Source: a virus
IMG/VR virus record: IMGVR_UViG_3300042526_000184
Location: 1-35,851 of that record
Direction: 5' to 3' (one strand)
Length of the DNA: 35,851 nt
Made by a program: the position numbers and the translations under genes
Part shown: piece after piece, positions 4,646 to 35,276 of the stretch
Numbering within the stretch: position 1 is the stretch's first letter
Layout of the letters: each line of letters starts with the position of its first letter
The notes under the pieces: generated by a model
The model's database searches: none
What the model saw: only the letters and a program-made list of their open reading frames with translations
Told to the model about the DNA's origin: nothing

Positions 4646-4785
4646 ATGAGCAATCACAGGTAGATGCAGGCAAAGTTATTGAGTCTTTGCTACGACAAGT
4701 AGCAGAATATGCTCAGAAGGTTGCCTTGTTGGAGGCTTTTGTGGCTTCTGTGGATAAGGGTGAGGGTAACGAAAAGGGTGATTAG
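4642..4785 (+). CDS. Small coiled-coil protein of unknown function (47 aa)
   Basis: A 47-codon frame starts with an ATG overlapping the fibre stop (ATGA) and ends at TAG 4783-4785. Residues 8-38 have a heptad-like Val/Leu/Ala pattern (KVIESLLRQVAEYAQKVALL) predicting one amphipathic helix or coiled coil. The tail is charged (EGNEKGD). Small helical proteins after a fibre gene can be fibre chaperones or minor tail components, but no family is recognised. Its last codons contain the GTAACGA box that precedes the next gene. Confidence 0.7.
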   Translation: MNEQSQVDAGKVIESLLRQVAEYAQKVALLEAFVASVDKGEGNEKGD

Positions 4786-4790
4786 TGATG
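4766..4790 (+). promoter_or_regulatory. GTAACGA box, 22 nt before ATG 4788
   Basis: GTAACGA at 4766-4772 lies inside the end of the 47-aa gene. The A of ATG 4788 is 22 nt downstream, directly preceded by GTG 4785 (TTAGTGATGG). It shares spacing and layout with four other gene starts in this window. The function (late promoter or start-site element) is inferred. Confidence 0.55.
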
Positions 4791-5219
4791 GCTTACACTG
4801 ATATAGGTTTAAATTACGAACCTAAGAGGCGTGGCGCTGCCCAGCAGCGTGATGCTTCTTTGGCGATGAATGCGTTTAGTCGTATGTTGTCGCAGCAGCG
4901 TGGTGCTCGTGATCTTATGGCTACTGATAAGGCTGCTTCTAAGGGGCTTGAGGGTTTTGGTGCTGGGTATGGTCGGCGTGGTTTACGTAATAGTGGCATT
5001 TTCCGTAATGCTGCTTCGGACTATTCGCAGAATTGGACGCAGCAACGTAATGATCAGTTGGATGCTTTGCGTCAGCAGTTGGCTCAGTATGACTTGCAGG
5101 ATGCTCAGTCTAAGGCTGCTTATGGTGATACTGAGGCTGAGATTGAGTTGGCGAAGCAGCGTGACATTCTTGCCACGGCTGCTTCTTTACAGGGTTTGCG
5201 CCCGTTTCTAGGAGGATGA
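4788..5219 (+). CDS. Gln/Ala-rich presumed internal virion protein (143 aa)
   Basis: The protein is soluble, rich in Gln, Arg and Ala, and largely helical. It contains a Gly/Arg-rich turn around residues 54-68 (GLEGFGAGYGRRGLR) followed by a Gln-rich helix. It has no recognised domain. The position is telling: it opens a run of four soluble helical proteins of rising size that ends in the 2210-aa protein. That layout fits DNA-ejection or internal core proteins of podoviruses. GTG 4785 and ATG 4788 are tandem possible starts, and ATG is chosen because four other genes share the same NTG-ATG pair behind a GTAACGA box. The next gene has a clear AGGAGG in the 3' end of this one. Confidence 0.7.
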   Translation: MAYTDIGLNYEPKRRGAAQQRDASLAMNAFSRMLSQQRGARDLMATDKAASKGLEGFGAGYGRRGLRNSGIFRNAASDYSQNWTQQRNDQLDALRQQLAQYDLQDAQSKAAYGDTEAEIELAKQRDILATAASLQGLRPFLGG

Positions 5220-7619: not shown

Positions 7620-7644
7620 GTAACAAGTCCACCTATTAGTGATG
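7620..7644 (+). promoter_or_regulatory. GTAACAA box, 22 nt before ATG 7642
   Basis: GTAACAA at 7620-7626 starts 2 nt after the upstream stop, and the A of ATG 7642 is exactly 22 nt downstream. GTG 7639 directly precedes that ATG (TATTAGTGATGG). No Shine-Dalgarno sequence is visible in between. This is the most degenerate of the five start-linked boxes. Confidence 0.5.
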
Positions 7645-10600
7645 GCTGTTTATAATCCTCGTTTTGATCCCAATGTTATGGGTGTTCCCAGTGGCTCTTC
7701 ACCTAAGGTGCAGAGCCTAAAAGATATCCTTGCTGCTCAACCAGTCCAACAACGTGTATCTTCTTTGGGGAGTAGTGCTTCTACTAAGGGCGCTCCTGAT
7801 GAGGGTGGATGGCGTGGTCTTGTAGGGGATATTCTTGGCAGTGCTCCTGCCAAGATCCTTCTCAAACCTTTAATTGCCCTTGACGTTCCTCGTCGTGTCA
7901 TCATCTCAGGTATTAAAGAAGGCGTTGACATCTTCGGTCCTGATGATGCGTCTTTGGGCGATTTCATGAAGCAGGTTAAAGATCCTACTTTTGGTGCTGG
8001 AGATTTTGTTAATACGGGAAGCAAGTGGGCTGACCGTATTCTTGGTTTTGTTGGTGACGTTGCTCTTGACCCGTTGACTTACGCTACGTTTGGTGCTTCT
8101 CATTTTGCTGGTAGTGGTGGTCGTCTTGCGTTAGCGAACCTTGCTAAGGACGCTGGTTTTGAGGGCGCTAAACTTGCTCAGATTGCACGCTATGGGCGTG
8201 CTGCTCTAGATGCTGATGAGATTGCTCGTCTTGGTGTTAACCGTAGTGGTATCTACATGTTTGGTAAGCGTTTGCCTCAGGTGCGTATTGCTGGTACTGG
8301 CAAGATTGGTGAGTTGAGTGAGAGGGCTTTGGCTGGTCTTCGTCTTGCTGGTTCTAATACCAAACTTGGTTCTGCTATGCAGAAGGCTTTCACTCCTGAC
8401 GATTATAAAGAGTTGCGTATCGCTTTGGCTAAGGGCGATGTTCCTTCTAGTAAAGTTGGCGATATTATTACGACGATTGTTTCTCGTGATACTGAACGTC
8501 AGATGGCTGCTCGTAGTTTGAATGAGGGGCAGCGACGTGTAGTGCAGGTTATGGCTGAGGCTGGCGAGTCAGAGTTGCAGTCAACACGTAAAACATTACA
8601 TAAGTATATGGAGAATCCAGCGTTGTTGGCTAACGCTTCTGCTGTTGAGCAGAAGGCTTTGTCTCGTTGGACTGCTTTGTTTGGTACTTTTTGGGATGAT
8701 GTTGATGCGATCATTAAGGGTGTAGATCCTAGTGGTGGCTTTGGTCGTTTCCAAAACTATTTCCCTCACATGACTACTGATGCTGCTGATAAGTGGATGC
8801 GTGAAGCACGTGGTGCTTACAGTAAAGAAGTTTCTGAACTCATTGACCGTCCTCTTGATCCTGCACAGGTTTTCCAGCATCGTAAATTAAAAGAGGGCAT
8901 GGAATGGTTTGGCACTAAGTTAGGTAAGGATGACTTAACTGTTGATCGTTTGAATGAGATTGCTCGTAATGGTGGTTTCACTGGCGACTTCTTTGAGACA
9001 GACATTGTTACTGTTGCAGAGAAGTATGTTGGTAGTTATTCAAAGCAGATGGGTATCTCTTCTCGTTTGAAGGAACTGTCAGATAAGGGTGTTATTAAAA
9101 CTCTTACTGATCGTTCTATTGATGAAACGATTATTGATACTGGCGCTAAGGCTGCTCATGAAACAGTCTTGAAGGCTGCTACTAAAGATCTTGTTGATGT
9201 TGGTATTAGTTTCAAGGCTGCTCTGCAGATGGCTGCCGAAGGTGTTGTCGTCGCCAAGAATGAGGCTGTTGCTGGTATCGCTAATGTTACTGAGGCTGCT
9301 GTAAAGGCAACGACTGCAGCCGATGCTGCTGCGTTGCAGTTAACAAACATTAATAAGAAGATGGACGATGCTGTCAGTCTTCTTGATAACTATCAGAGAA
9401 CCATTGAGTCGCTTCTTGCTCCTGATGGTTCTTATCCTATTAGTGCTGGTCCAGTGTTCAAGCAGTTGGATGAGTTGAAACTTGAGTTAACTAAGTTTAA
9501 AGACGAGTTCGCTGGCGCTTCTGCTAATGAGGCTAGGTTTGCTGAGGAACTTGCTGTTGCTAAGTCGGAGGGTGCTGCTGCTGAGGCTATTGTTAAGAAG
9601 CGTCAGGCTGCAGAGCGTGCGACGACAAAGAAAGCAACTGATGAGAAGGCTAAGAAGGTTGCAACTAAAATTGAGAAGACTATTACTGATGTTCAGGACA
9701 CGGTTAATTACAACCAGTTGTTGACAGAGAATTACAACTCTATTGTTGAGGGTACTGTGTTCACTGGTGTTAACAGTGATCTTCTTAATAACATTGGTGA
9801 GTGGATTGGTTCGCAGCCTTTGGCTGCTGCTACTCGTGGTCGCAAGGGTGTTCAACCAAAGTTTAGTGGTGGTGTAGATGCGTACATTAAAACCAATCTC
9901 GGTAATCGTGAATGGTTTAAGCGTTTAACTGGTAAGAAAAAAATATCTCCAACCAGTGTTGCTAAGTTGAACTATGAAGGTAGTGAGAATACTGTTGTTG
10001 CTTTGTTGAACTCAGGACCATCTTATATTGAAGATGGTCGTCGTGCTGGCATGTGGATGTTGGCTCGTGATGAGAAGTTCTTTGGTGAGGATGTCCCTGA
10101 GATTCTTGCTAGAGCACGTGAGGATCTTGTTCGTTCTCTTGAAGATGCCGAGACTGCTGTTATTGCTGATGCTGCTAGAGCAACTGCAGCAAAAAAGACT
10201 GAGACAGTAAGTGATGCTGTTGTTGTCGGTGCGACTGCGACTAAGAAGCAGCAGGGTGAAATTGCTGCTGCGTCTGCGAGTCTTACTGGCGAGAATACTG
10301 CAGGTCGTATTGCTGCTCGTCGTGTTGAAGATGTGAATATTGTTGCTGATGAAGCAGGACAATATGCTACACGTTTGGAAAAGTTCTCTAATGTTCGTGG
10401 ACAGTTAGAGGCTGCTGGTCTTTCTAATTCTACTGAGCCTTTGACTCAGGAAGCAAAGGTTAAGTTTGCTCAGATGCTTGTTGGTGAAGAGGCATTGGCT
10501 GAGCGTGCTGCTGCTGCCAATGCAGATGAACTCGTGGGTGATGTTGCGGATTATAATGTTTCTGATGAAATCTTTGCGAAGACAGGCGTTGATGAAGAAG

Positions 10601-13600
10601 CAGCAATGGATGTTGCGAACGCCGAAGATTATGGTAGTACTCTCGCTGACTCTACTGATACGAGTGTTTATTCTAAATCAGATTATATTGAGGGTGGATC
10701 TGTACGGAATATTTCAACTGCTAGTGACACTATTACTATTGATAGCGATTTCCAAAACGCTATCAATAATGCTATTTCTAAACCTATTGAAACTTTTGCT
10801 GATCTTCATCGTGTTGTTAAAGAGATTGAAGACAATATTATTGGGCGTACGTGGGAAGTTGGTCAAGGCGCAACTCAAAGAACATACACTGTTCGTGATG
10901 CAATCGTTGCTCCTACTGCCAAGGATGGCAAGTCTGCTATCCAGCGTGCTGTTGAAAACAACTTAACTAAGGCAAATGTTAAGGCTGCAGAAATTAGTGG
11001 CTTGACCACTCAAGAGGTTTCTCAAGTTGTTGCTGAGAAGTTAACTCAGTACATGGTGTTGTCTGAGTTGCATCAGAGGTTTATCAATATTGGTGCTGTC
11101 CTTGGCAAGCATGGTCAGACTGTCACTAAGGACATGTTGTCTGATACTGCGAAGAATGTGACACGCAACCTTCGCCAGCATTGGCAGGCAAAGGTTGAAA
11201 GATTAACTGCTTTGGGTGGTCCTGAATTGGAACGTGCTCAGAATGTATTGAAACAACTTGATTCTATTACTCTTGAACCTTCTGATGAGTTGTTCTCTCG
11301 TATGCTTGGTGACATGTCTGTTCGTGTTCGTAACACTGCTGCTGATGCATCCGATGCTACTCGTGTGAGTGGTTTGTCTACTGCTGCTCGTGGCAAGATG
11401 GATGATGCTACTGATTCTTTGCAGAAGATGAAGTCCACTCCTCAGTATGTTAAGGCTATGCATGATAAAGAAATGGTTAATGCCATGGACGATCTTGCTG
11501 CCTCCAACCTTGATCAGTATGTTCTTCCCGATGGCACTCAAGGTTTCCTAGCCAAGGATGCCGAGGGCAACGTTGATGTGTTGATGATGCCTGATGGTGT
11601 TACTCCTGTTTCGTTCACTGAGGCTGAGTGGCGTTCTCTATATAAAGACCCTAAAGCAAATGTTGTTGCCGATACCACTAAGGTCACTGCTCTTGAAGAT
11701 GACATCGCCAAGTTGGCAAGCGACATTCAGAATGGTAAAACTACTTTAACCAACATGGAGAAGGCTCGTGCTGCTGGCAAGTTAACTGAAGCAGACATAG
11801 CCACGCAGCAAAAGATCATCAATGCTCTTGGTGCTGCACAACAAAAACTTGATGGACTACAAACAGATTTAGCAAAACTCAAATCTGTCGCTGATGTTCA
11901 TAATCCTGCCGTTCAACAGATGGCTCTTGAAAAGATGCGTATCCTTGTACATGGTAACGGCAAGCAGCAAGGCTGGTACAACTCAGGGGTTGACCTCAAG
12001 GGTGTTCTTAACTCTGACAATGCTGCTGTTGCCTTGCGTCGCACAAACATTAAATCTGCATGGGAATCAGGACCGCAAGCGAAGTTCTTGGCTGAGGTTG
12101 ATAACACTGCAGCGAAGGCTGAAGTGTATGCACAACAAAGTTTCTCTAACTCTGTCGTCGCCATTAACGATCATGCCGACTTGTTGACTAAGGCTGCTGA
12201 TGACGCTGCTAAGGTGGCGCAAGATAAGGCTGCGAAAGAGGCTGCAGATGCTGCAGCGGAAGCAACTGAGGTTGTGCCTCAGGTTATTCCTGCTGCTCCT
12301 GTTGACAACACTAAGGTATCTACCTTGACAGCGATGTTGAAGGAAGCAAGTGCTGGTACTAGTTCTGCTCGTGCGAGTGTTAAAAAGGTTGAAACTAAGA
12401 TTAGTAAGTTGGAAGCAACTCTTGCTTCTGTTCGTCAACGTGAGGCTGCACGTTTAACGGGCAAGGCCGAGAAGCAACAAACTGTTGTTAATAAGTTGGC
12501 TGACACGCTGCATCAAGCACAAGGTGCTTTTGATGCTGCTGATGCTGTACGTGCTTCTGCTCAAGAGGTTTCCGAGCGTACTGTTCCTTGGCTTGAGGAG
12601 ACCATTGCCTTTGTTGACTCTGTTATTGATGGGACTGTGAAGTTGCCTCAGGGTCGTGTAGGTGGGAAGTTTGGTCCTCGTCCTGTTGCTACTCCTATGC
12701 CTCAGACTGTTGCTGATCGTGCTGCACAGACTGCAGCAGATCGTGCTTCGGGTGGCAGGAATGCTACTGCTCGTTTGCGTAAGGCTGGTCTTACTAATGA
12801 TGAAGCGAACGAGTTGACTCGTTGGCGTAAGACTACTCAGTTGGCTATGAAGGCTTTTAATGATGATCCTAATGATCCTATTGCTCGTGTGCTTATGGCT
12901 GCTGCGCATGCTGAGGGTAAATATTTTATGGCTGATCTTACTGTGCGTCAGAATCAATTGATCATGCGTAATATTGAGCAGGGAAATATTGCGACGACAT
13001 TCGTGAAAGCAACTGAGGATGGTTTTGAGTCGTTAAAGAAGATTGGTTTAGGTGGCGTTCAAGCACCTAAGGAGATTGCTGAAGTTTTGCAGAACGTTCG
13101 TCGTGCTGCTCAGCCTGCTTGGGCTAAAGAGTTGAATCGTTTCTTCGGTAAGTACACACGTTTCTTTAAAGCGTATGCAACGTTAAGTCCAGGATTTCAT
13201 GCTCGTAACGCCATGTCTAACACGTTCTCTCTTGTCGCTTCAGGTGCTGATATCAAGAATATTCATCGTGGTTTTGATTTGTATCGTGATCTTATTTCTC
13301 ATATTAATAACAAGGGTAAGATTGATGACTGGCTTGCTAAGTTCACTGGCGAAGAGGCTAAGCGTGTTGAGATTGCTGTGCGTGCTATGGAGTCTGCTGG
13401 TGGTGGTCGTGTGGAGGAAGCGTTCGCTGACTTCGCACGTAAGGGAAGCACTGTTACTGACAACATTTTGACTCGTGGTTCACGCAAGTTGGGTGAGCGT
13501 GTTGAAGGCTCAGGTCGTTTTATGTTGGCTTATGACTCTGCTGCTAAGGGATTAGATTTCAATACGGCGACTGCTCGTGTTAAGCGTTACTTGTTTGACT

Positions 13601-14274
13601 ATAACGATGTTGGTTCTTTTGATCAGAACATTCGTCAGATCGTACCGTTTTGGATGTGGATGTCACGCAACCTTCCATTGCAGTTGGTTAACCAGTGGAG
13701 CAACCCTCGTGCGTATGCCGTGTACAACAACTTGATGAGAAACATTGGTCAGGACGATTCTAAGGATGTTGTTCCTTCTTGGTTGAAGGAACAAGGTTCT
13801 GTGAAGATTGCTGATGGATGGTATCTTGCACCTGATCTTGGTTTTAACAGGTTGAGTAAGGATTTGGAGCAGTTGAAAGATCCTGCTCGTTTGTTGTCGT
13901 ATGTTAACCCTGCGTTACGTCTTCCTGTTGAAGTGTTTGGTGGACGTAAGTTCTATAACAACGTTCCTTTCAGTCAGGATAAAGAAAAAGTTGCTGCTGG
14001 TTTTGGTGTTTCTCCTGTTATTGCTGCACTCGCTGATTTGCTTGGGCAAACCGAGCGAGGTCCGAATGGTCAGCAGTTGGTTGATCCCAAGTTGAACTAT
14101 GCGATACAGTCTCTGTTCCCGATGCTGGGCAAGACTGAACGTCTTGTCCCTGAATCGGATGCGATGAAGCCGAAGGTGCTTGGCAACTGGGCTTCGTTCT
14201 TGGGTGTTCCTGTTCGTCAGGTTACTGAGGGTATGCGTGAGAATGAATTGCGACGACAAAGTAGTGGAGGTTAG
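7642..14274 (+). CDS. Giant presumed DNA-ejection/internal core protein (2210 aa)
   Basis: This one gene takes almost a fifth of the window. Residues about 55-160 contain amphipathic hydrophobic stretches (LLKPLIALDVPRRVIISGI and GFVGDVALDPLTYATFGAS) that could touch membrane. Residues about 500-720 and 1510-1640 are Ala/Lys/Glu-rich long helices or coiled coils. Near residue 1850 there is LSPGFHARNAMSNTFS, and near 2000 QIVPFWMWMSRNLPLQLVN; similar C-terminal segments occur in very large proteins of other phages. No transglycosylase or peptidase motif was recognised. In podoviruses without a tape measure such proteins are packed in the head and ejected with DNA, which fits its place after three soluble helical proteins and before a cell-wall peptidase. 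GTG 7639 is an alternative start. Confidence 0.75.
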   Translation: MAVYNPRFDPNVMGVPSGSSPKVQSLKDILAAQPVQQRVSSLGSSASTKGAPDEGGWRGLVGDILGSAPAKILLKPLIALDVPRRVIISGIKEGVDIFGPDDASLGDFMKQVKDPTFGAGDFVNTGSKWADRILGFVGDVALDPLTYATFGASHFAGSGGRLALANLAKDAGFEGAKLAQIARYGRAALDADEIARLGVNRSGIYMFGKRLPQVRIAGTGKIGELSERALAGLRLAGSNTKLGSAMQKAFTPDDYKELRIALAKGDVPSSKVGDIITTIVSRDTERQMAARSLNEGQRRVVQVMAEAGESELQSTRKTLHKYMENPALLANASAVEQKALSRWTALFGTFWDDVDAIIKGVDPSGGFGRFQNYFPHMTTDAADKWMREARGAYSKEVSELIDRPLDPAQVFQHRKLKEGMEWFGTKLGKDDLTVDRLNEIARNGGFTGDFFETDIVTVAEKYVGSYSKQMGISSRLKELSDKGVIKTLTDRSIDETIIDTGAKAAHETVLKAATKDLVDVGISFKAALQMAAEGVVVAKNEAVAGIANVTEAAVKATTAADAAALQLTNINKKMDDAVSLLDNYQRTIESLLAPDGSYPISAGPVFKQLDELKLELTKFKDEFAGASANEARFAEELAVAKSEGAAAEAIVKKRQAAERATTKKATDEKAKKVATKIEKTITDVQDTVNYNQLLTENYNSIVEGTVFTGVNSDLLNNIGEWIGSQPLAAATRGRKGVQPKFSGGVDAYIKTNLGNREWFKRLTGKKKISPTSVAKLNYEGSENTVVALLNSGPSYIEDGRRAGMWMLARDEKFFGEDVPEILARAREDLVRSLEDAETAVIADAARATAAKKTETVSDAVVVGATATKKQQGEIAAASASLTGENTAGRIAARRVEDVNIVADEAGQYATRLEKFSNVRGQLEAAGLSNSTEPLTQEAKVKFAQMLVGEEALAERAAAANADELVGDVADYNVSDEIFAKTGVDEEAAMDVANAEDYGSTLADSTDTSVYSKSDYIEGGSVRNISTASDTITIDSDFQNAINNAISKPIETFADLHRVVKEIEDNIIGRTWEVGQGATQRTYTVRDAIVAPTAKDGKSAIQRAVENNLTKANVKAAEISGLTTQEVSQVVAEKLTQYMVLSELHQRFINIGAVLGKHGQTVTKDMLSDTAKNVTRNLRQHWQAKVERLTALGGPELERAQNVLKQLDSITLEPSDELFSRMLGDMSVRVRNTAADASDATRVSGLSTAARGKMDDATDSLQKMKSTPQYVKAMHDKEMVNAMDDLAASNLDQYVLPDGTQGFLAKDAEGNVDVLMMPDGVTPVSFTEAEWRSLYKDPKANVVADTTKVTALEDDIAKLASDIQNGKTTLTNMEKARAAGKLTEADIATQQKIINALGAAQQKLDGLQTDLAKLKSVADVHNPAVQQMALEKMRILVHGNGKQQGWYNSGVDLKGVLNSDNAAVALRRTNIKSAWESGPQAKFLAEVDNTAAKAEVYAQQSFSNSVVAINDHADLLTKAADDAAKVAQDKAAKEAADAAAEATEVVPQVIPAAPVDNTKVSTLTAMLKEASAGTSSARASVKKVETKISKLEATLASVRQREAARLTGKAEKQQTVVNKLADTLHQAQGAFDAADAVRASAQEVSERTVPWLEETIAFVDSVIDGTVKLPQGRVGGKFGPRPVATPMPQTVADRAAQTAADRASGGRNATARLRKAGLTNDEANELTRWRKTTQLAMKAFNDDPNDPIARVLMAAAHAEGKYFMADLTVRQNQLIMRNIEQGNIATTFVKATEDGFESLKKIGLGGVQAPKEIAEVLQNVRRAAQPAWAKELNRFFGKYTRFFKAYATLSPGFHARNAMSNTFSLVASGADIKNIHRGFDLYRDLISHINNKGKIDDWLAKFTGEEAKRVEIAVRAMESAGGGRVEEAFADFARKGSTVTDNILTRGSRKLGERVEGSGRFMLAYDSAAKGLDFNTATARVKRYLFDYNDVGSFDQNIRQIVPFWMWMSRNLPLQLVNQWSNPRAYAVYNNLMRNIGQDDSKDVVPSWLKEQGSVKIADGWYLAPDLGFNRLSKDLEQLKDPARLLSYVNPALRLPVEVFGGRKFYNNVPFSQDKEKVAAGFGVSPVIAALADLLGQTERGPNGQQLVDPKLNYAIQSLFPMLGKTERLVPESDAMKPKVLGNWASFLGVPVRQVTEGMRENELRRQSSGG

Positions 14275-15384: not shown

Positions 15385-15577
15385 TTTCAGGTTCGTCCGC
15401 TGGTGCAACGAAGTCTCCTTTTACTCGGTCTGCGATTGATCCGATTTGGTCAATGATCGTTGGATCTTCTTTTGATTCCGCCAACCACAGGACTGTTGCG
15501 ATGGCTAGAGCAGCGACATCAGAGAACTCTAGTGGCTTTTGTTGTTCGGTTGTTTGTTCTTTTGTTTCTTCGTTCAT
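15377..15577 (-). CDS. Small acidic protein of unknown function (66 aa)
   Basis: ATG 15577 overlaps the stop of the upstream sigma/DUF1599 gene (ATGA). This start is preferred over an upstream in-frame ATG that would run 81 nt into that gene. The N-terminus is Glu/Gln/Thr-rich, then there is a hydrophobic helix (VAALAIATVLWLAES) that is too short and mixed for a sure membrane span, then an acidic tail. No family is recognised. Confidence 0.7.
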   Translation of the reverse strand: MNEETKEQTTEQQKPLEFSDVAALAIATVLWLAESKEDPTIIDQIGSIADRVKGDFVAPADEPESA

Positions 15578-16344
15578 TTTTCCTCGCTTAATTGCAGATT
15601 GAATGTTTCGTTCCAAACCATCATTGCGATGGTTGCGTATCCGACTAGGTCTTGCCATGTGTCTACTAATGCTTCGTTCTTAGGACGGTGTCCTTCTTCT
15701 ACGAGTGTTAGTAGTCGTGCGATCTTGTCGCACATTCTAATGGCTATTCCTGTTAGTCCGAATAGGTTGATGTTGTTGTGTCCGTAGTCTCGTTGTTTGC
15801 TGACTAGGAGTTTGTGCATTGAGTCTGCTTGCCAAATGCCATCGTGTTTGAGTTGGGCGCAAGCCATGTCTCCTACGTCACCTATGAGTTCTAGTGGGAC
15901 TTCTATTTGTGATCGTACGCATTGTGCGAGTCGTTTCTGCATTCCTTCTATTTGTGTGAGGATTGCAGGGTTGGTGGGGATAAATGAGTCCATGTCATCA
16001 ATGATTGCTCTTGATGCTTCTTCCCATGTTGTGAACATTGTGTACCTCATGTTGATTGAGTGGTCGTTGATTAGTAGTCGTTCTAGTTCAGCCATTGCTT
16101 TCTTTGATAGTCGCCATGCGTGAGGTTTGCTCACGCCTAAGCGTCCACCTAGTGTGCTGTATGAAATGCCTTCGTAGAATATTGCTTCAATGCAAAACTT
16201 GGACTGTGGTCCAAGTTTATCAATTGCATCTTGTACTGCTTCAATGTGTGACATGTCTTCGGGATCAAATATGTCCCCGTGTTGAAGCATGCGTTCTGCT
16301 TCTGTTGTTGGTTTTGCTGCGAGTAGATCAAGGTTGAATGTCAT
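15574..16344 (-). CDS. Fusion of sigma-factor region-4-like HTH with a DUF1599 (nucleotide-modification-associated) domain (256 aa)
   Basis: Residues about 35-92 read as a sigma-70 region 4 type helix-turn-helix. LGPQSKFCIEAIFYEGISYS is followed by TLGGRLGVSKPHAWRLSKKA, with the usual Leu-Gly-Val-Ser turn. Residues about 178-248 match the DUF1599/Nmad1 pattern: KQRDYGHNN, FGLTGIAIRMCDKIARL, then an ALVDTWQDLVGYATIA helix. That domain family often sits in phage nucleotide-metabolism or base-modification clusters. Residues 100-175 join the two. ATG 16344 is the first Met in a gene-like context and overlaps the upstream stop by 17 nt. The protein might be a transcription factor with a ligand-sensing or enzymatic tail. 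Both domain calls are by motif reading. Confidence 0.65.
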   Translation of the reverse strand: MTFNLDLLAAKPTTEAERMLQHGDIFDPEDMSHIEAVQDAIDKLGPQSKFCIEAIFYEGISYSTLGGRLGVSKPHAWRLSKKAMAELERLLINDHSINMRYTMFTTWEEASRAIIDDMDSFIPTNPAILTQIEGMQKRLAQCVRSQIEVPLELIGDVGDMACAQLKHDGIWQADSMHKLLVSKQRDYGHNNINLFGLTGIAIRMCDKIARLLTLVEEGHRPKNEALVDTWQDLVGYATIAMMVWNETFNLQLSEEK

Positions 16345-16792
16345 GGCGTATCGGCTCTGTTGGGAAGTAGTCAATGTGGAGTGCGAAGTATGGTTTGTTG
16401 TTGTCAGGGAATCTGTCAACGACACCGAACTTGTGGAATGCTTTAACCCATTCGGCTAGTGGGGCTACCCAGTAACGTTTCTTACTTGAGTCCCAAATCC
16501 AAAGGTTGACTGGTCCTACTGCTTGCCATACTGACATTGATGTCAGTTTGTCAAAGCGTGTCTTGAGCATACTGTCGCCTCGTGAGGCGCAACCCATAAC
16601 TTCGTATAGCCCATCGGGGAGCATATAGTCGGGAGCGTAACGCATTGTGTCACGCATGTGTCGTGTATCAAATGATGGTCGTAGCATCCCAAGCCTGTGG
16701 GCTGAGGGATTGACAGATTCAAATGCTGTCTCTGCTGTGTCTCCCATTGTTTTGATTCTTGTTGACCACGGCTGGTTCTTGTATGTGCTCAT
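16328..16792 (-). CDS. Phage protein of unknown function, possibly nuclease-like (154 aa)
   Basis: ATG 16792 overlaps the RusA stop (ATGA), so this start is chosen over an in-frame Met 45 nt upstream. The core contains RHMRDTMRYAPDYML, then LYEVMGCASR, then a LWIWDSSKKRYWVAPL strand pair. The order of an Asp in PDYM, a Glu in YEVM and a following basic helix recalls a PD-(D/E)XK fold, but the usual Lys is not in place and the call is not secure. Its place between a Holliday-junction resolvase and a regulator fits DNA metabolism. No signal or membrane segment is present. Confidence 0.65.
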   Translation of the reverse strand: MSTYKNQPWSTRIKTMGDTAETAFESVNPSAHRLGMLRPSFDTRHMRDTMRYAPDYMLPDGLYEVMGCASRGDSMLKTRFDKLTSMSVWQAVGPVNLWIWDSSKKRYWVAPLAEWVKAFHKFGVVDRFPDNNKPYFALHIDYFPTEPIRHDIQP

Positions 16793-17205: not shown

Positions 17206-18011
17206 CTTAAATCAGCATCCTCCAAGATACTCATAGCATCCTCAGGATTGAGTGATGCTTTACGGCATTCGTGTGCGAGGTGTGTCAACGTGGTTGACCT
17301 GTCACGTCCTTCAATAGGTCCGTCTCTGAAGATGGCTCTACCTAGTGGTGTCAGTTGCCTTGCTGCTTGCGCCATGTCGTGTGACGGTGCTCCTACAGTA
17401 ATTGTGGCTACTTTTGGTGGCTGATAGTAGTCTGCTATCTCGGCTACTTTCGTGGGTGTCACTCTTGTGGCAATCGCTTCGGGAACAAAGTCAGATAAAC
17501 TGATCTTGTTGCCTTGACGATCTACCATGTATCGTACACCATTACCATAGTCAGGGTACGGTAAACGTACGTAGTTTCCTAGTTGTCCATTGGCAAGTTT
17601 CTCTTGCTTAGGATTCACTTCTTTAGGGTTGAGACCTGTTACTTGGTGCGCTGCAAGGAACATGCGTCGCATGTCTCCTGCAAGAAGAAGTTCTGTAGCG
17701 AATACCCAAATGTGGTAGCCACGCTTAGTCTTCTCAACCCATGATGGTACGCCTACTGCTTGGAATGCATCGTGCAATGACCATGCTTCTTCGGGAGCAT
17801 CGTAGTCAATGTCGGTGCAACCCCATACACATTGTGTTTGACCACCATGTGACAAGCAGGGATAGACACCGATGAATGGTCCTGTGGCTAAATGGTTTTT
17901 GAAATGGTCGGGAGTTAAAGGTGATCGGACACAGCCACCTTCCCATGAACCATAAGCATCGCCACGTCCACGGAACAGTGTGACAAATCCTTTTAGGATT
18001 TCGTCATCCAT
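17115..18011 (-). CDS. Archaeo-eukaryotic-type primase (AEP, TOTE-like) (298 aa)
   Basis: ATG 18011 overlaps the helicase stop by 8 nt. The catalytic DxD is D67-I-D69 in CVWGCTDIDYD. The conserved His is H100 in KTKRGYHIWVFA, and a third motif is GNYVRLPYP around 145-153. This order (DxD, then GxHxW, then NxxRLPxP) is that of the AEP superfamily primase domain found in TOTE systems and phage PrimPol proteins. The C-terminal 80 residues (RDRSTTLTHLAHECR onward) resemble a helical primase C-terminal domain. It should make primers for phage replication. As no DNA polymerase gene is visible, it might also extend DNA. It lies beside a DnaB-like helicase, as expected for a primase-helicase pair. 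Confidence 0.8.
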   Translation of the reverse strand: MDDEILKGFVTLFRGRGDAYGSWEGGCVRSPLTPDHFKNHLATGPFIGVYPCLSHGGQTQCVWGCTDIDYDAPEEAWSLHDAFQAVGVPSWVEKTKRGYHIWVFATELLLAGDMRRMFLAAHQVTGLNPKEVNPKQEKLANGQLGNYVRLPYPDYGNGVRYMVDRQGNKISLSDFVPEAIATRVTPTKVAEIADYYQPPKVATITVGAPSHDMAQAARQLTPLGRAIFRDGPIEGRDRSTTLTHLAHECRKASLNPEDAMSILEDADLRWGKYLMRGETGRLELEKLLVRAYGHTQFS

Positions 18012-28291: not shown

Positions 28292-28323
28292 GCGTTACCC
28301 GTTACCTCACTAAACAGGTAACG
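28292..28323. promoter_or_regulatory. Cluster of three GTAACG boxes with an 8-bp inverted repeat
   Basis: On the minus strand two boxes, GTAACGG (28305-28299) and GTAACGC (28298-28292), lie side by side. On the plus strand one box starts at 28318. CGTTACCT (28300-28307) and AGGTAACG (28316-28323) form a perfect inverted repeat with an 8-nt centre. The two leftward boxes could serve the 28198 unit and the rightward one the packaging genes. Confidence 0.55.
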
Positions 28324-28342
28324 AAGTTGCCTGTAATTGATG
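28318..28342 (+). promoter_or_regulatory. GTAACGA box, 22 nt before ATG 28340
   Basis: GTAACGA at 28318-28324 lies 22 nt before ATG 28340, which is directly preceded by TTG 28337. There is no ribosome site in between. This box heads the whole rightward packaging/head operon, which is the strongest argument that it is a promoter. Confidence 0.65.
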
Positions 28343-30472: not shown

Positions 30473-30497
30473 GTAACGATCCACTTATAGTGTGATG
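30473..30497 (+). promoter_or_regulatory. GTAACGA box, 22 nt before ATG 30495
   Basis: TAGGTAACGAT starts in the stop codon of the large terminase. GTAACGA 30473-30479 lies 22 nt before ATG 30495, which is preceded by GTG 30492 (TATAGTGTGATGG). There is no ribosome site. Confidence 0.6.
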
Positions 30498-30722
30498 GGA
30501 TCTATTAACTGCGTAGAATGTGACAAACTATTCTCTTTTGACGTACTTCCACGTAGAGGTGCTGTCTGTTTTGGTTGTCACGTAAAAGGTATCCGTTTAG
30601 GGTTTGCTCATGGTAAAGAAGACTTCCATGGTCCAACCATTAAACAGCGTCAAGATGAACAAATGAGGCATGCTGCCAATGCTGGCATTAAAGCCGAACC
30701 TGTTGGGACTCGTTGGATCTAA
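30495..30722 (+). CDS. Small zinc-ribbon protein (75 aa)
   Basis: INCVECDK gives C6 and C9, and AVCFGCHVKG gives C25 and C28, a classic treble-clef or zinc-ribbon spacing. The rest is basic and polar (HGPTIKQRQDEQMRHAANAG). Similar short zinc proteins occur beside head genes of many actinobacteriophages. It may be a structural adaptor or nucleic-acid binder. There is no Shine-Dalgarno site. GTG 30492 and ATG 30495 are tandem possible starts behind a GTAACGA box. The next gene starts directly after its stop. Confidence 0.7.
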   Translation: MGSINCVECDKLFSFDVLPRRGAVCFGCHVKGIRLGFAHGKEDFHGPTIKQRQDEQMRHAANAGIKAEPVGTRWI

Positions 30723-31105: not shown

Positions 31106-32944
31106 ATGGCTCGTCCTTCTAACTCTGAGGCACTTACTCGTTATCAAAAGAAGATTGCTATTACCAAACGTTGGCGACGTGAGGAAGAATACGACGATAC
31201 GTGGCGACGTTTGATTGACCTTTATCGTGGTCGCCATTACGAAGACATCTCTGACGAAGATCGTCTTTTGATCAACATCTCATTTTCTACGATTAACGTT
31301 ATCGCACCTAGTGTTGCTGTTAACTATCCTAAGATTGCGGTTAATGCCCGTCGCCCTGCTGATGCGCCTAAGGCGATCATCACTGAGGCTGTAATTAACT
31401 ATTGGTGGAAGCACTACAAAATACGTCCCGAATTCCGCAGGGCTGTAAAAGATTTCCTTATCGTCGGTCATGGCTGGTTGAAGTGTGGCTATCGTTATGT
31501 TGAGGAAGAGAACATCTCCGAAGAGGGGGATCATTCTGATCCTAATGTTGAGGGCAACGAAGTAACTCCATCTATTGTGATTGTTGAAGATCGTCCTTTT
31601 GTTGAGCGTGTATCACCATTTGATGTGTACGTTGATCCTGACGCTACTTCAATGCAAGATGCCCAGTGGATTGCGCATCGTATCCGTCGCTCATTGAAAG
31701 ATATCAAGAGCGATAAAAGGTACTCACGGGCTGCACGTGAAAACATTAATGCTACCTCGTGGGGTCGTTATAGTGAAGATCCAGCAAAACGTAAAGTTCA
31801 AGACACCGAAGAAGGCTATGTTGAAGTATGGGAATACTACGACATTGCTAAAAAAACAATGTGTGTTTTTGCTGAAGGTTCAGAACAGTTCTTGGTCAAG
31901 CCAATTGATATGCCGTACGCTTTCGGTCATCCTTTTGTGATGATCCGAAACTACGACATTCCTGACTATTTCTATCCCATGGGTGATCTTGAGGCTATTG
32001 AGCCGCTTCAACGTGAGTTGAATGCGACTCGTACTCAGATGATGAATCACCGTAAACGGTACTCACGTAAGTATTTGTTCAAGGAATCAGCATTTGATGC
32101 TGATGGTCGTGATGCACTTGAATCAGACTACGACAACGTTTTAGTTCCTGTATCGGGTGACGAGAACCTTAATAACGTTGTTGTGCCTTTCCCTGCTGTA
32201 GTTACTCCTCCTGAGTTCTATCGCCAGTCAGACATTATTGAAGGCGACATTCAAACTGTTTCAGGTGTATCTGAGTATCAGCGTGGTGGTGTTCCTGAGA
32301 TTCGTCGTACAGCGACAGAAGCAGCAATTGTTCAAGATGCTGCGAATGCTCGTGCTGCTGACAAGTTGGCTACCATTGAAGGTTCTATCGCTGAGGTGGC
32401 TTTCCGTCTTGTTGCTCTTGCTCAACAGTTTATGACTGGTGAGCAAGTTGCTCGTGTTGTTGGTCGTGATGGCGAACCTACATGGGTTACTTTTGAGCCT
32501 GAATATATTGCTGGAGAGTTTGACTTTGATGTTGAGGCTGGTTCTACAGCCCCAGTTAATGAGTCTTTCCGACGACAGATGGCATTGCAGATGGTTGACG
32601 CTATGTCGCCGTTTGCTGGCGCTGGTCTTATTAACATGCCTGCGCTTGCAGCGCATGTTCTGCAGTTTGGTTTTGGTATCAAGAACCCTGACCAGTTCAT
32701 TCAGCAAGCACCTCCTCCACCCGAAATGGGCGAAGGTATGCCACCTGAAATGGGTATGCCACCTCAAGGTGGTATGCCTATGCCTCCTGATGTGGGTGGT
32801 ATGACTTCGCAGGGTGCGCCTGCTGCAGGACCAGTTCCTGTTGCTCCTCCACCTTCAAGCCCTGATGCGCTTTCAGGTGTTGACCCTTCGGTGTTAGCGA
32901 TGCTTTCTTCTCGTATGGGCATGCAGTTACCTAACACCATGTAA
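31106..32944 (+). CDS. Portal protein (612 aa)
   Basis: Position directly after the terminase region and before scaffold and capsid, together with length and composition, mark this as the portal. The core has an N-terminal helical start (YQKKIAITKRWRREEEYDDT), a stem-like region near 285-330 (REFNAT-type helix: LQRELNATRTQMMNHRKRYS) and a TATEAAIVQDAANA helix near 405. The last about 85 residues are Pro/Met/Gly-rich and probably disordered. The dodecameric portal is the DNA gate and the seed for capsid assembly. The P22/SU10-like size and the adaptor gene fit a short-tailed phage. The ribosome site is weak (GGCGAG). Confidence 0.9.
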   Translation: MARPSNSEALTRYQKKIAITKRWRREEEYDDTWRRLIDLYRGRHYEDISDEDRLLINISFSTINVIAPSVAVNYPKIAVNARRPADAPKAIITEAVINYWWKHYKIRPEFRRAVKDFLIVGHGWLKCGYRYVEEENISEEGDHSDPNVEGNEVTPSIVIVEDRPFVERVSPFDVYVDPDATSMQDAQWIAHRIRRSLKDIKSDKRYSRAARENINATSWGRYSEDPAKRKVQDTEEGYVEVWEYYDIAKKTMCVFAEGSEQFLVKPIDMPYAFGHPFVMIRNYDIPDYFYPMGDLEAIEPLQRELNATRTQMMNHRKRYSRKYLFKESAFDADGRDALESDYDNVLVPVSGDENLNNVVVPFPAVVTPPEFYRQSDIIEGDIQTVSGVSEYQRGGVPEIRRTATEAAIVQDAANARAADKLATIEGSIAEVAFRLVALAQQFMTGEQVARVVGRDGEPTWVTFEPEYIAGEFDFDVEAGSTAPVNESFRRQMALQMVDAMSPFAGAGLINMPALAAHVLQFGFGIKNPDQFIQQAPPPPEMGEGMPPEMGMPPQGGMPMPPDVGGMTSQGAPAAGPVPVAPPPSSPDALSGVDPSVLAMLSSRMGMQLPNTM

Positions 32945-32963
32945 CGATATGTTTGTATCTATA
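32941..32963 (+). promoter_or_regulatory. GTAACGA box before the scaffold/capsid genes
   Basis: GTAACGA at 32941-32947 spans the portal stop codon. No ATG lies 22 nt downstream; instead a 33-nt leader with AAGGAG follows before GTG 32996. By analogy with the other boxes an mRNA would start near 32963. Confidence 0.5.
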
Positions 32964-32995
32964 GAGCAACCATTTAGGACTCTAAGGAGATACAG

Positions 32996-34785: not shown

Positions 34786-34811
34786 TAGGTAACGATTATT
34801 TAGTGTTATAG
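34786..34811 (+). promoter_or_regulatory. TAGGTAACGAT box directly after the capsid terminator
   Basis: The undecamer TAGGTAACGAT (34786-34796) is identical at 30470 and 35249. It is followed by TTTAGTGTTATAGG, and a leader with AGGGAG leads to ATG 34835. Its place right after a terminator is where a promoter is needed. An mRNA start near 34811 is predicted by analogy. Confidence 0.65.
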
Positions 34812-34834
34812 GAATCTATTTTTAGGGAGATATA

Positions 34835-35251
34835 ATGGCTGCAAAGAAAATTACTGGTCGTTCAGCAGATGCTGCTGCTGGGGCTGCTACTGCTCGCAAG
34901 TTGGCTGCTGCTGCTAAAATTGCACAGGCTAAGGCTGACGAGGCAAAGAAGGCTGCTGCTGCTGCAAAGAAGAAGTTAGTTGCGTCACAGGCTAGCGATG
35001 CTGCCAGTCGTCGTTATGTGTCCACAAGTGGTGCAATTATCACGGACAGATTTGGACGCAAAACACAACAAAGCACTTTGAAAGATAAGAAAACTGGTAT
35101 CAATCGTCAAACACAAACATTCCTTGATGAGCCTAAGGGTAGCGAGTATAGGTCACGAACGGGTTATAGTGCAACCAATGCTAAAACTAGAAAAAATATT
35201 ATGAACTATGGTCCTAAAGAGGGTTCTTATAAAGCCAGTTTTGGTAAGTAG
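34835..35251 (+). CDS. Basic Ala/Lys-rich protein, histone-H1-like in composition (138 aa)
   Basis: AGGGAG precedes ATG 34835. The first 55 residues are almost only Ala, Lys and a few polar residues (AAKKITGRSADAAAGAATAR, then KADEAKKAAAAAKKKL). This forms a basic helix like that of histone H1 or phage DNA-binding proteins. The rest is basic and polar (SGAIITDRFGRKTQQSTLKD, TGINRQTQTFLDEP). It may bind packaged DNA or act as a minor head protein. No enzyme motif or known domain was recognised. It has its own box-terminator-defined unit start. Confidence 0.7.
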   Translation: MAAKKITGRSADAAAGAATARKLAAAAKIAQAKADEAKKAAAAAKKKLVASQASDAASRRYVSTSGAIITDRFGRKTQQSTLKDKKTGINRQTQTFLDEPKGSEYRSRTGYSATNAKTRKNIMNYGPKEGSYKASFGK

Positions 35252-35276
35252 GTAACGATTCAGCCTACTAATGATG
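35249..35276 (+). promoter_or_regulatory. TAGGTAACGAT box, 22 nt before ATG 35274
   Basis: GTAACGA 35252-35258 lies 22 nt before ATG 35274, which directly follows ATG 35271 (TACTAATGATGG). The TAG stop of the basic protein is part of the conserved undecamer. There is no ribosome site. Confidence 0.6.

Follow-up and report, generated by a model that had tools for sequence, protein, structure and literature searches.

A sigma region-4 protein as candidate reader of a compact late promoter in a widespread group of uncultured freshwater phages

What reads the short GTAACGA boxes that stand before the late genes of a virus of 35,851 bases (the window, that is, the whole stretch of DNA analysed here), and could it be a protein in which a sigma-like domain is joined to a DUF1599 domain? 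The gene for this protein, P0001 (256 residues), lies on the minus strand at 15574..16344, with its ATG at 16344 and the end of its stop codon at 15574. A GTG at 16425 would extend the open frame upstream, and the alignment of its relatives begins at the ATG. P0001 is the penultimate gene among the minus-strand replication genes (exonuclease, helicase, primase and RusA). The late genes (terminase, portal, scaffold, capsid and tail) occupy the plus strand from about 28.3 kb to the end of the record and continue from position 1 to 14.7 kb. A first-pass annotation, made from the letters of this DNA, had named P0001 as a candidate reader of a "GTAACGA code", and had supposed that the fusion would couple late transcription to nucleotide state or to modified DNA.

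The N-terminal part of P0001 is a true sigma region-4 domain. Its helix-turn-helix (HTH), residues 32-91 (16072..16251, minus strand), was recognised by Pfam, by a PDB profile search, in an AlphaFold model and by structure comparison. The Pfam match (PF04545, residues 40-87, E 3.3e-5) lies 0.3 bits below the curated cut-off, and the same family is matched by 15 of the 15 aligned relatives. All 11 matches in the PDB profile search were sigma factors, the best at 1.4e-6. The model (mean pLDDT 83) contains the four sigma-4 helices, and its comparison with region 4 of sigma-BldN (6dxo) gave a Z of 10.0 and an rmsd of 1.1 over 59 residues. The recognition helix comprises residues 73-91 (16072..16128, minus strand), within which Arg78 and Leu79 (codons at 16108-16113) covary with the first two bases of the box. 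Region 2, which serves core binding and -10 melting, has no match in the P0001 chain or in its relatives, the remainder of the chain being DUF1599. None of the other scanned open reading frames of the window has a sigma family match, so that the first-pass view of P0001 as the only clear sigma-like protein there holds.

The assignment of the C-terminal part to DUF1599/Nmad1 also held. This all-helical domain, which is optional in relatives, spans residues 151-246 (15607..15894, minus strand) and was also delimited as residues 173-251. P0001 by itself matches DUF1599 (PF07659) below the cut-off (E 0.003); its match to phrog_1485 reaches 1.9e-15, and 15 of 15 relatives match PF07659, the best at 2.1e-6. 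Modelled separately, the domain had a pLDDT of 95, and Foldseek returned nothing for it at E 0.001. Its invariant residues E125, D129 and D133, together with D107-K108 (A5 numbering), would be compatible with the catalytic acidic residues of dimeric dUTPases and all-alpha NTP pyrophosphatases.

GTAACGA occurs 10 times in the window versus 3.1 expected, and six of the nine plus-strand copies fall in non-coding DNA, which makes up 5% of the window (binomial p ~1e-6). Late promoter-like sites were located on the plus strand at 4766..4787, which serves the gene 4788-5219 (MAYTDIG...); at 28318..28339, whose box (hereafter box 1, here GTAACGA) precedes what is probably the small terminase gene, just before the gene of the large terminase; at 30473..30494, immediately 3' of the terminase stop codon, with an ATG at 30495; and at 35252..35273, with an ATG at 35274 and a second in-frame ATG at 35271. 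At all four, the spacing between the first base of the box and the ATG is exactly 22 nt. In two others the box lies 46-58 nt from a gene with its own ribosome-binding site. The scaffold site (32941..32993) consists of box 1, TATAG and a conserved leader, GAGCAACC...GGACTCT. The site at 34789..34834 is followed by a ribosome-binding site and the ATG at 34835, and its box comes immediately 3' of a terminator-like hairpin behind the capsid gene, a position expected of a promoter. Among relatives, the codons just 3' of box-linked ATGs differ mostly by synonymous changes (for example, atg gct tac act and atg gcc tac acc); translation therefore begins there, and the 5' end of the message cannot lie downstream of the ATG.

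Several other features of these regions deserve mention. Box 1 of the terminase promoter lies within an inverted repeat, CGTTACCTcactaaacAGGTAACG (28298-28326), with extra box copies facing the early genes. The scaffold leader (32964-32987; loci L149-L268) is conserved group-wide, precedes the ribosome-binding site and has self-complementary AGAG and CTCT, given which the scaffold message may start with a small hairpin. The first gene after the 30473 promoter (30495-30722) codes for a small cysteine-containing protein, MGSINCVECDK.... A late protein of 2211 residues (7639-14274) has no match in Pfam, PHROGs or PDB and is probably an internal virion (ejection) protein. Neither Rfam matches nor tRNAs were found in the window.

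Relatives were gathered by successive IMG/VR scans, which yielded 8, 21 and 317, of which last number 80 were kept. Judged by their sequences, the "GTAACGA code" had been drawn too narrowly: GTAACGA is one lineage's version of a late promoter box that appears in at least six lineage-specific forms. At the equivalent place relatives carry GGAACG/A, AGAACG, CGAACG, TGAACG or GGGACA, and GTAGTG and GTAGCG also occur; for example, GGAACGA is found in G034, AGAACG in G050 and GGAACG/A in phages with split genes. A TATA-like box follows about 8-12 bp downstream of box 1, and box 1 stands 20-23 nt from the ATG, which gives a consensus of G[T/G]AAC[G/A]A, about six bases, CTATTAGTG and ATG. Each phage examined in this respect (G034, G045, G050, G055, G151 and G164) carries its own box variant at several promoters. 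The pattern AGGTAACGA...ATG was present in 10 of 13 relatives, with 12 matches versus a single control match. When all contigs are pooled, reading frames that begin with ATG cluster at 20-23 nt from the phage's own box (67 cases at 22 nt versus about 8 per position elsewhere), and a reversed-box control gave a flat profile. Sites with promoter spacing numbered 75 on the late strand and one on the opposite strand. An unbiased scan of IMG/VR with the scaffold leader alone (TAGAGCAACC...GGACTCT, a pattern without box 1) returned 120 loci; barring a few chance matches in coding sequence, nearly all are preceded by a box 1 variant at a distance of about 20 nt. Chance occurrence of the boxes is ruled out by these counts and controls.

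Several phages have, near the divergent region, a second conserved form of the promoter, in which box 1 is followed by GGGGGGGA-TATAGGGGGGG, on the strand that does not carry the late genes (L125 at 17533, plus strand; L422 at 14003, plus; L120 at 664, minus; L143 at 17324, plus; L426 at 14846, plus). In G078 (L419/L420), the deepest-branching leader-bearing phage, a palindrome, GGGACAgttTGTCCC, encloses the GGGACA boxes, a hint that the reader may act as a dimer in this phage.

The promoter and the sigma-4 gene travel together. In the unbiased scan, 19 of the 20 contigs of at least 30 kb with a true promoter also carry a sigma-4 gene, versus none of the five contigs in which the leader matched by chance inside coding sequence. 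One apparent case of a promoter-bearing phage without the gene, G074, was ruled out as a fragment without that segment: it matches G061 on both flanks and lacks the stretch where G061 has its sigma-4 gene. Phages with the layout and without the protein, like a structure without an HTH, were looked for, and neither occurred.

Moreover, the recognition helix and the box change in a matched way, as a comparison of 75 non-identical phages revealed. Where the second base of the box is T, residue 79 is Leu in 27 phages, Ile in five and Lys in one; where the box begins with GG, it is Lys in 34, Gln in one and Arg in one. Arg78 is found in 69 of 69 phages with a G-first box and is missing from all six with A, C or T in that position. 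In sequence, this part of the helix reads SKPHAWRL in the window, AKSHAWRK in a GG phage and SKSVAWYA in an AG phage. Residue 79 is the column of the sigma-4 domain most strongly associated with the box, followed by the turn and residues 71, 72 and 74 of the HTH; the best column of DUF1599 has an association of 0.60, versus 0.77 for residue 79. The sole clear mismatch to this rule is G164 (L427/L428), where GTAACG boxes go with Lys79 and Asn75 (NKVNAWRK). Box calls in six phages (G038, G058, G059, G075, G078 and G091) were corrected by hand and are judgement calls: the automatic calls had taken a neighbouring AACG or AGC(A) core, which was replaced by the site at the normal distance.

Such agreement could also come from a shared tree, if the boxes were read by another factor, be it an undetected T7- or virion-type phage RNA polymerase or a host factor, and the sigma-4 protein acted otherwise, for example as a repressor or an anti-host factor. 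We consider this unlikely. It is true that the promoter is somewhat T7-like (AACGA-N-TATAG, with a start near TATA|G), and that on a five-protein tree the box classes are nearly monophyletic, with five changes of the box and four of residue 79 making one or two independent pairs. Independence was also examined on a DUF1599 tree, and a tree-corrected test of helix against box was underpowered by the small number of independent changes. Elsewhere in the phage proteomes, 7 of about 1,900 columns reach the box association of residue 79. However, the five best-associated columns of the HTH are without exception confined to the recognition helix and the preceding turn, which make up 11 of its approximately 65 columns (hypergeometric ~6e-5), and the pairs themselves, Arg with G, a hydrophobic residue with T, and Lys, Gln or Arg with G, follow the known chemistry of sigma region 4. 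It is this confinement, together with its chemical sense, that is notable, rather than the value of residue 79 alone. In addition, no polymerase was found in the window by Pfam, PHROGs, PDB or motif, the 2211-residue protein included. A single-subunit RNA polymerase (PF00940) was likewise not matched in 22 records, which is weak evidence since control genomes were equally silent.

On balance, P0001 is likely to be a late-gene activator whose sigma-4 domain reads box 1, and in this respect the co-occurrence and the matched changes support the first-pass proposal. We put it no higher than likely because independent pairs are few, comparable columns exist in other proteins, G164 does not fit, and some boxes were corrected by hand. 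From the fold, the layout and the paired variation we infer DNA binding, activation, the identity of the polymerase and the transcription start point. In the mechanism that we propose, the sigma region-4 domain would bind box 1 (here GTAACGA) as double-stranded DNA, with Arg78 facing the G at base 1 and residue 79 facing base 2. Bound P0001 would then position RNA polymerase on the TATA-like box some 8-12 bp downstream. This would most likely be the polymerase of the host, because neither a whole sigma factor nor a polymerase was found in the phage. As predicted from the sequence, transcription would start 19-23 nt from the first base of box 1, probably at TATA|G; that is, at or a few nucleotides before the ATG of the nearly leaderless late genes, and at GAGCAACC for the scaffold gene. 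Complete sigma factors use promoters whose -35 and -10 boxes are separated by about 17 bp, and with the sigma holoenzyme transcription starts about 35 bp from the -35 element. Box 1, at about 20 bp from the predicted start, is about 13 bp closer than that element. The sigma-4 head would either be seated on the polymerase differently than in a sigma factor, or act as an activator beside it.

The fusion itself might instead be a sensor of nucleotides or of modified DNA, with DUF1599 controlling the sigma-4 head. Most members of the group have the two parts either fused or side by side; dimeric dUTPases head the list in structure comparison of the C-terminal domain (5myf, Z 6.1, rmsd 3.8 over 122 residues); and dUTPases of staphylococcal phages act as regulators. 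However, a Z of 6.1 is inside the chance range for helical bundles. Among the first 81 relatives, moreover, 64 are fused and 17 have sigma-4 and DUF1599 as separate adjacent genes, and three full-size records (G078, G079 and G151) have boxes and a sigma-4 gene and no DUF1599. Since DUF1599 is absent from these three box-bearing phages, box reading cannot depend on it. DUF1599 is dispensable in nature and its fusion to the reader is not constant, and a sensing role for P0001, including the coupling to nucleotide state or modified DNA envisaged at first, is not supported; we hold it to be improbable. In the proposed activator, DUF1599 would be an accessory that some lineages have fused to the reader and that reading can do without; it is perhaps a nucleotide-hydrolysing enzyme. 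Box 1 is very unlikely to be an RNA translation signal and no promoter, as its fixed distance to the ATG in many genes, with no ribosome-binding site between, might suggest, since at the scaffold and 34789 genes it lies farther off, before their own ribosome-binding sites and with the spacing of box, TATAG and leader kept, the 34789 box follows a terminator-like hairpin, and a DNA-reading helix varies along with the box.

How does the proposed activator compare with known systems? In T4, late transcription goes through a sigma-like part (gp33 and gp55) rather than a whole sigma factor, and gp33 does not read DNA; in the present phages, by contrast, box reading appears to lie with the sigma-4 part, and no counterpart of gp55 was found. 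With the Ltr/RinA/ArpU and Q-like activators of Gram-positive and other phages, the likeness lies in small proteins that turn on, through the host polymerase, the genes of packaging and morphogenesis, as proposed here. Weak matches to PHROG transcription regulators (phrog_36 and phrog_248) were obtained with standalone relatives. The split relatives reached E values of 0.01-0.05 with the NCBIfam model phage_rinA (TIGR01636), at 13.7-16 bits versus a cut-off of 31.9, and P0001 has no match to TIGR01636. Ltr of Phi13 binds about four repeats 40-110 bp upstream of a sigma-A TATA box and drives one promoter (PMC13123087). In the present group, on the contrary, a single box of 6-7 bp stands about 20 bp from the predicted start at about six promoters, and the reader is sometimes fused to DUF1599; four imperfect repeats upstream of one late promoter were not seen. 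The P0001 family thus falls outside both the curated Ltr/RinA model and the repeat layout. Phage late activators of the Ltr/RinA kind are already known; the present family differs from them in its single boxes at several compact promoters, and no earlier description of a GTAACGA phage promoter was found in the literature searched.

The closest parallels in fold, recognition helix and kind of box (GTAAC/GGAAC) are region 4 of the ECF and group-3 sigma factors, such as BldN, SigD and SigH of Corynebacterium glutamicum, and SigB/SigF, which also share a switch of the second base with a polar/hydrophobic change of residue. BldN reads CGTAAC (PMC2375139), and its Leu aligns with Leu79 of P0001. In C. 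glutamicum, the second base distinguishes the box of sigma-D (GTAAC) from that of sigma-H (GGAAT), and it is read by a Val or a Ser of the recognition helix (PMC11588781). Unlike these factors, P0001 has no region 2, would act at a box about 20 rather than about 35 bp from the predicted start, and belongs to a family that is stand-alone or fused to DUF1599.

The phages concerned form a large, uncultured group widespread in freshwater, of which no cultured member was found in this analysis; GTDB contigs yielded no bacterial prophage relatives. A protein of an uncultured Caudovirales phage in BFVD, A0A6J5QFU4, has a P0001-like two-part fold (262 columns, TM 0.79/0.75, 32% identity); it is named after Gp74 of Clostridium phage phiCTP1, a name that is a similarity transfer only. 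MW202803, itself uncultured, is the sole related named phage record found and the sole GenBank relative. In MW202803.1 (L148), an unannotated sigma-4-like reading frame (17347-17856) lies immediately 5' of the DUF1599 frame, and the gene between those of terminase and portal is annotated as a DNA-directed RNA polymerase. This record is without AACG boxes and has instead about 28 palindromes, GTTTC-N5-GAAAC, over 42 kb (55 matches on both strands, versus 0.7 expected). Some of them are spaced from late starts as a promoter would be, and in appearance they resemble repressor or "stoperator" sites.

Taken further, P0001 may be a sigma factor reduced to its reading head, which would bring the host polymerase to a compact 20-bp promoter, with the head about 20 instead of 35 bp from the start, late messages starting almost at the ATG, and head and box changed together into at least six forms. 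We offer this fuller picture tentatively. If it is true, such reading by a reduced head would be a promoter architecture not described before. The group also supplies a natural series of sigma-4 helices paired with boxes (GTAACG, GTAGTG, GGAACG/A, AGAACG, CGAACG, TGAACG and GGGACA). With this series, the code by which sigma region 4 recognises DNA would become open to direct testing, and orthogonal promoter-activator pairs could be obtained. For the phages themselves, it offers an explanation of late gene control across a widespread freshwater group, in which DUF1599 comes and goes beside the reader.
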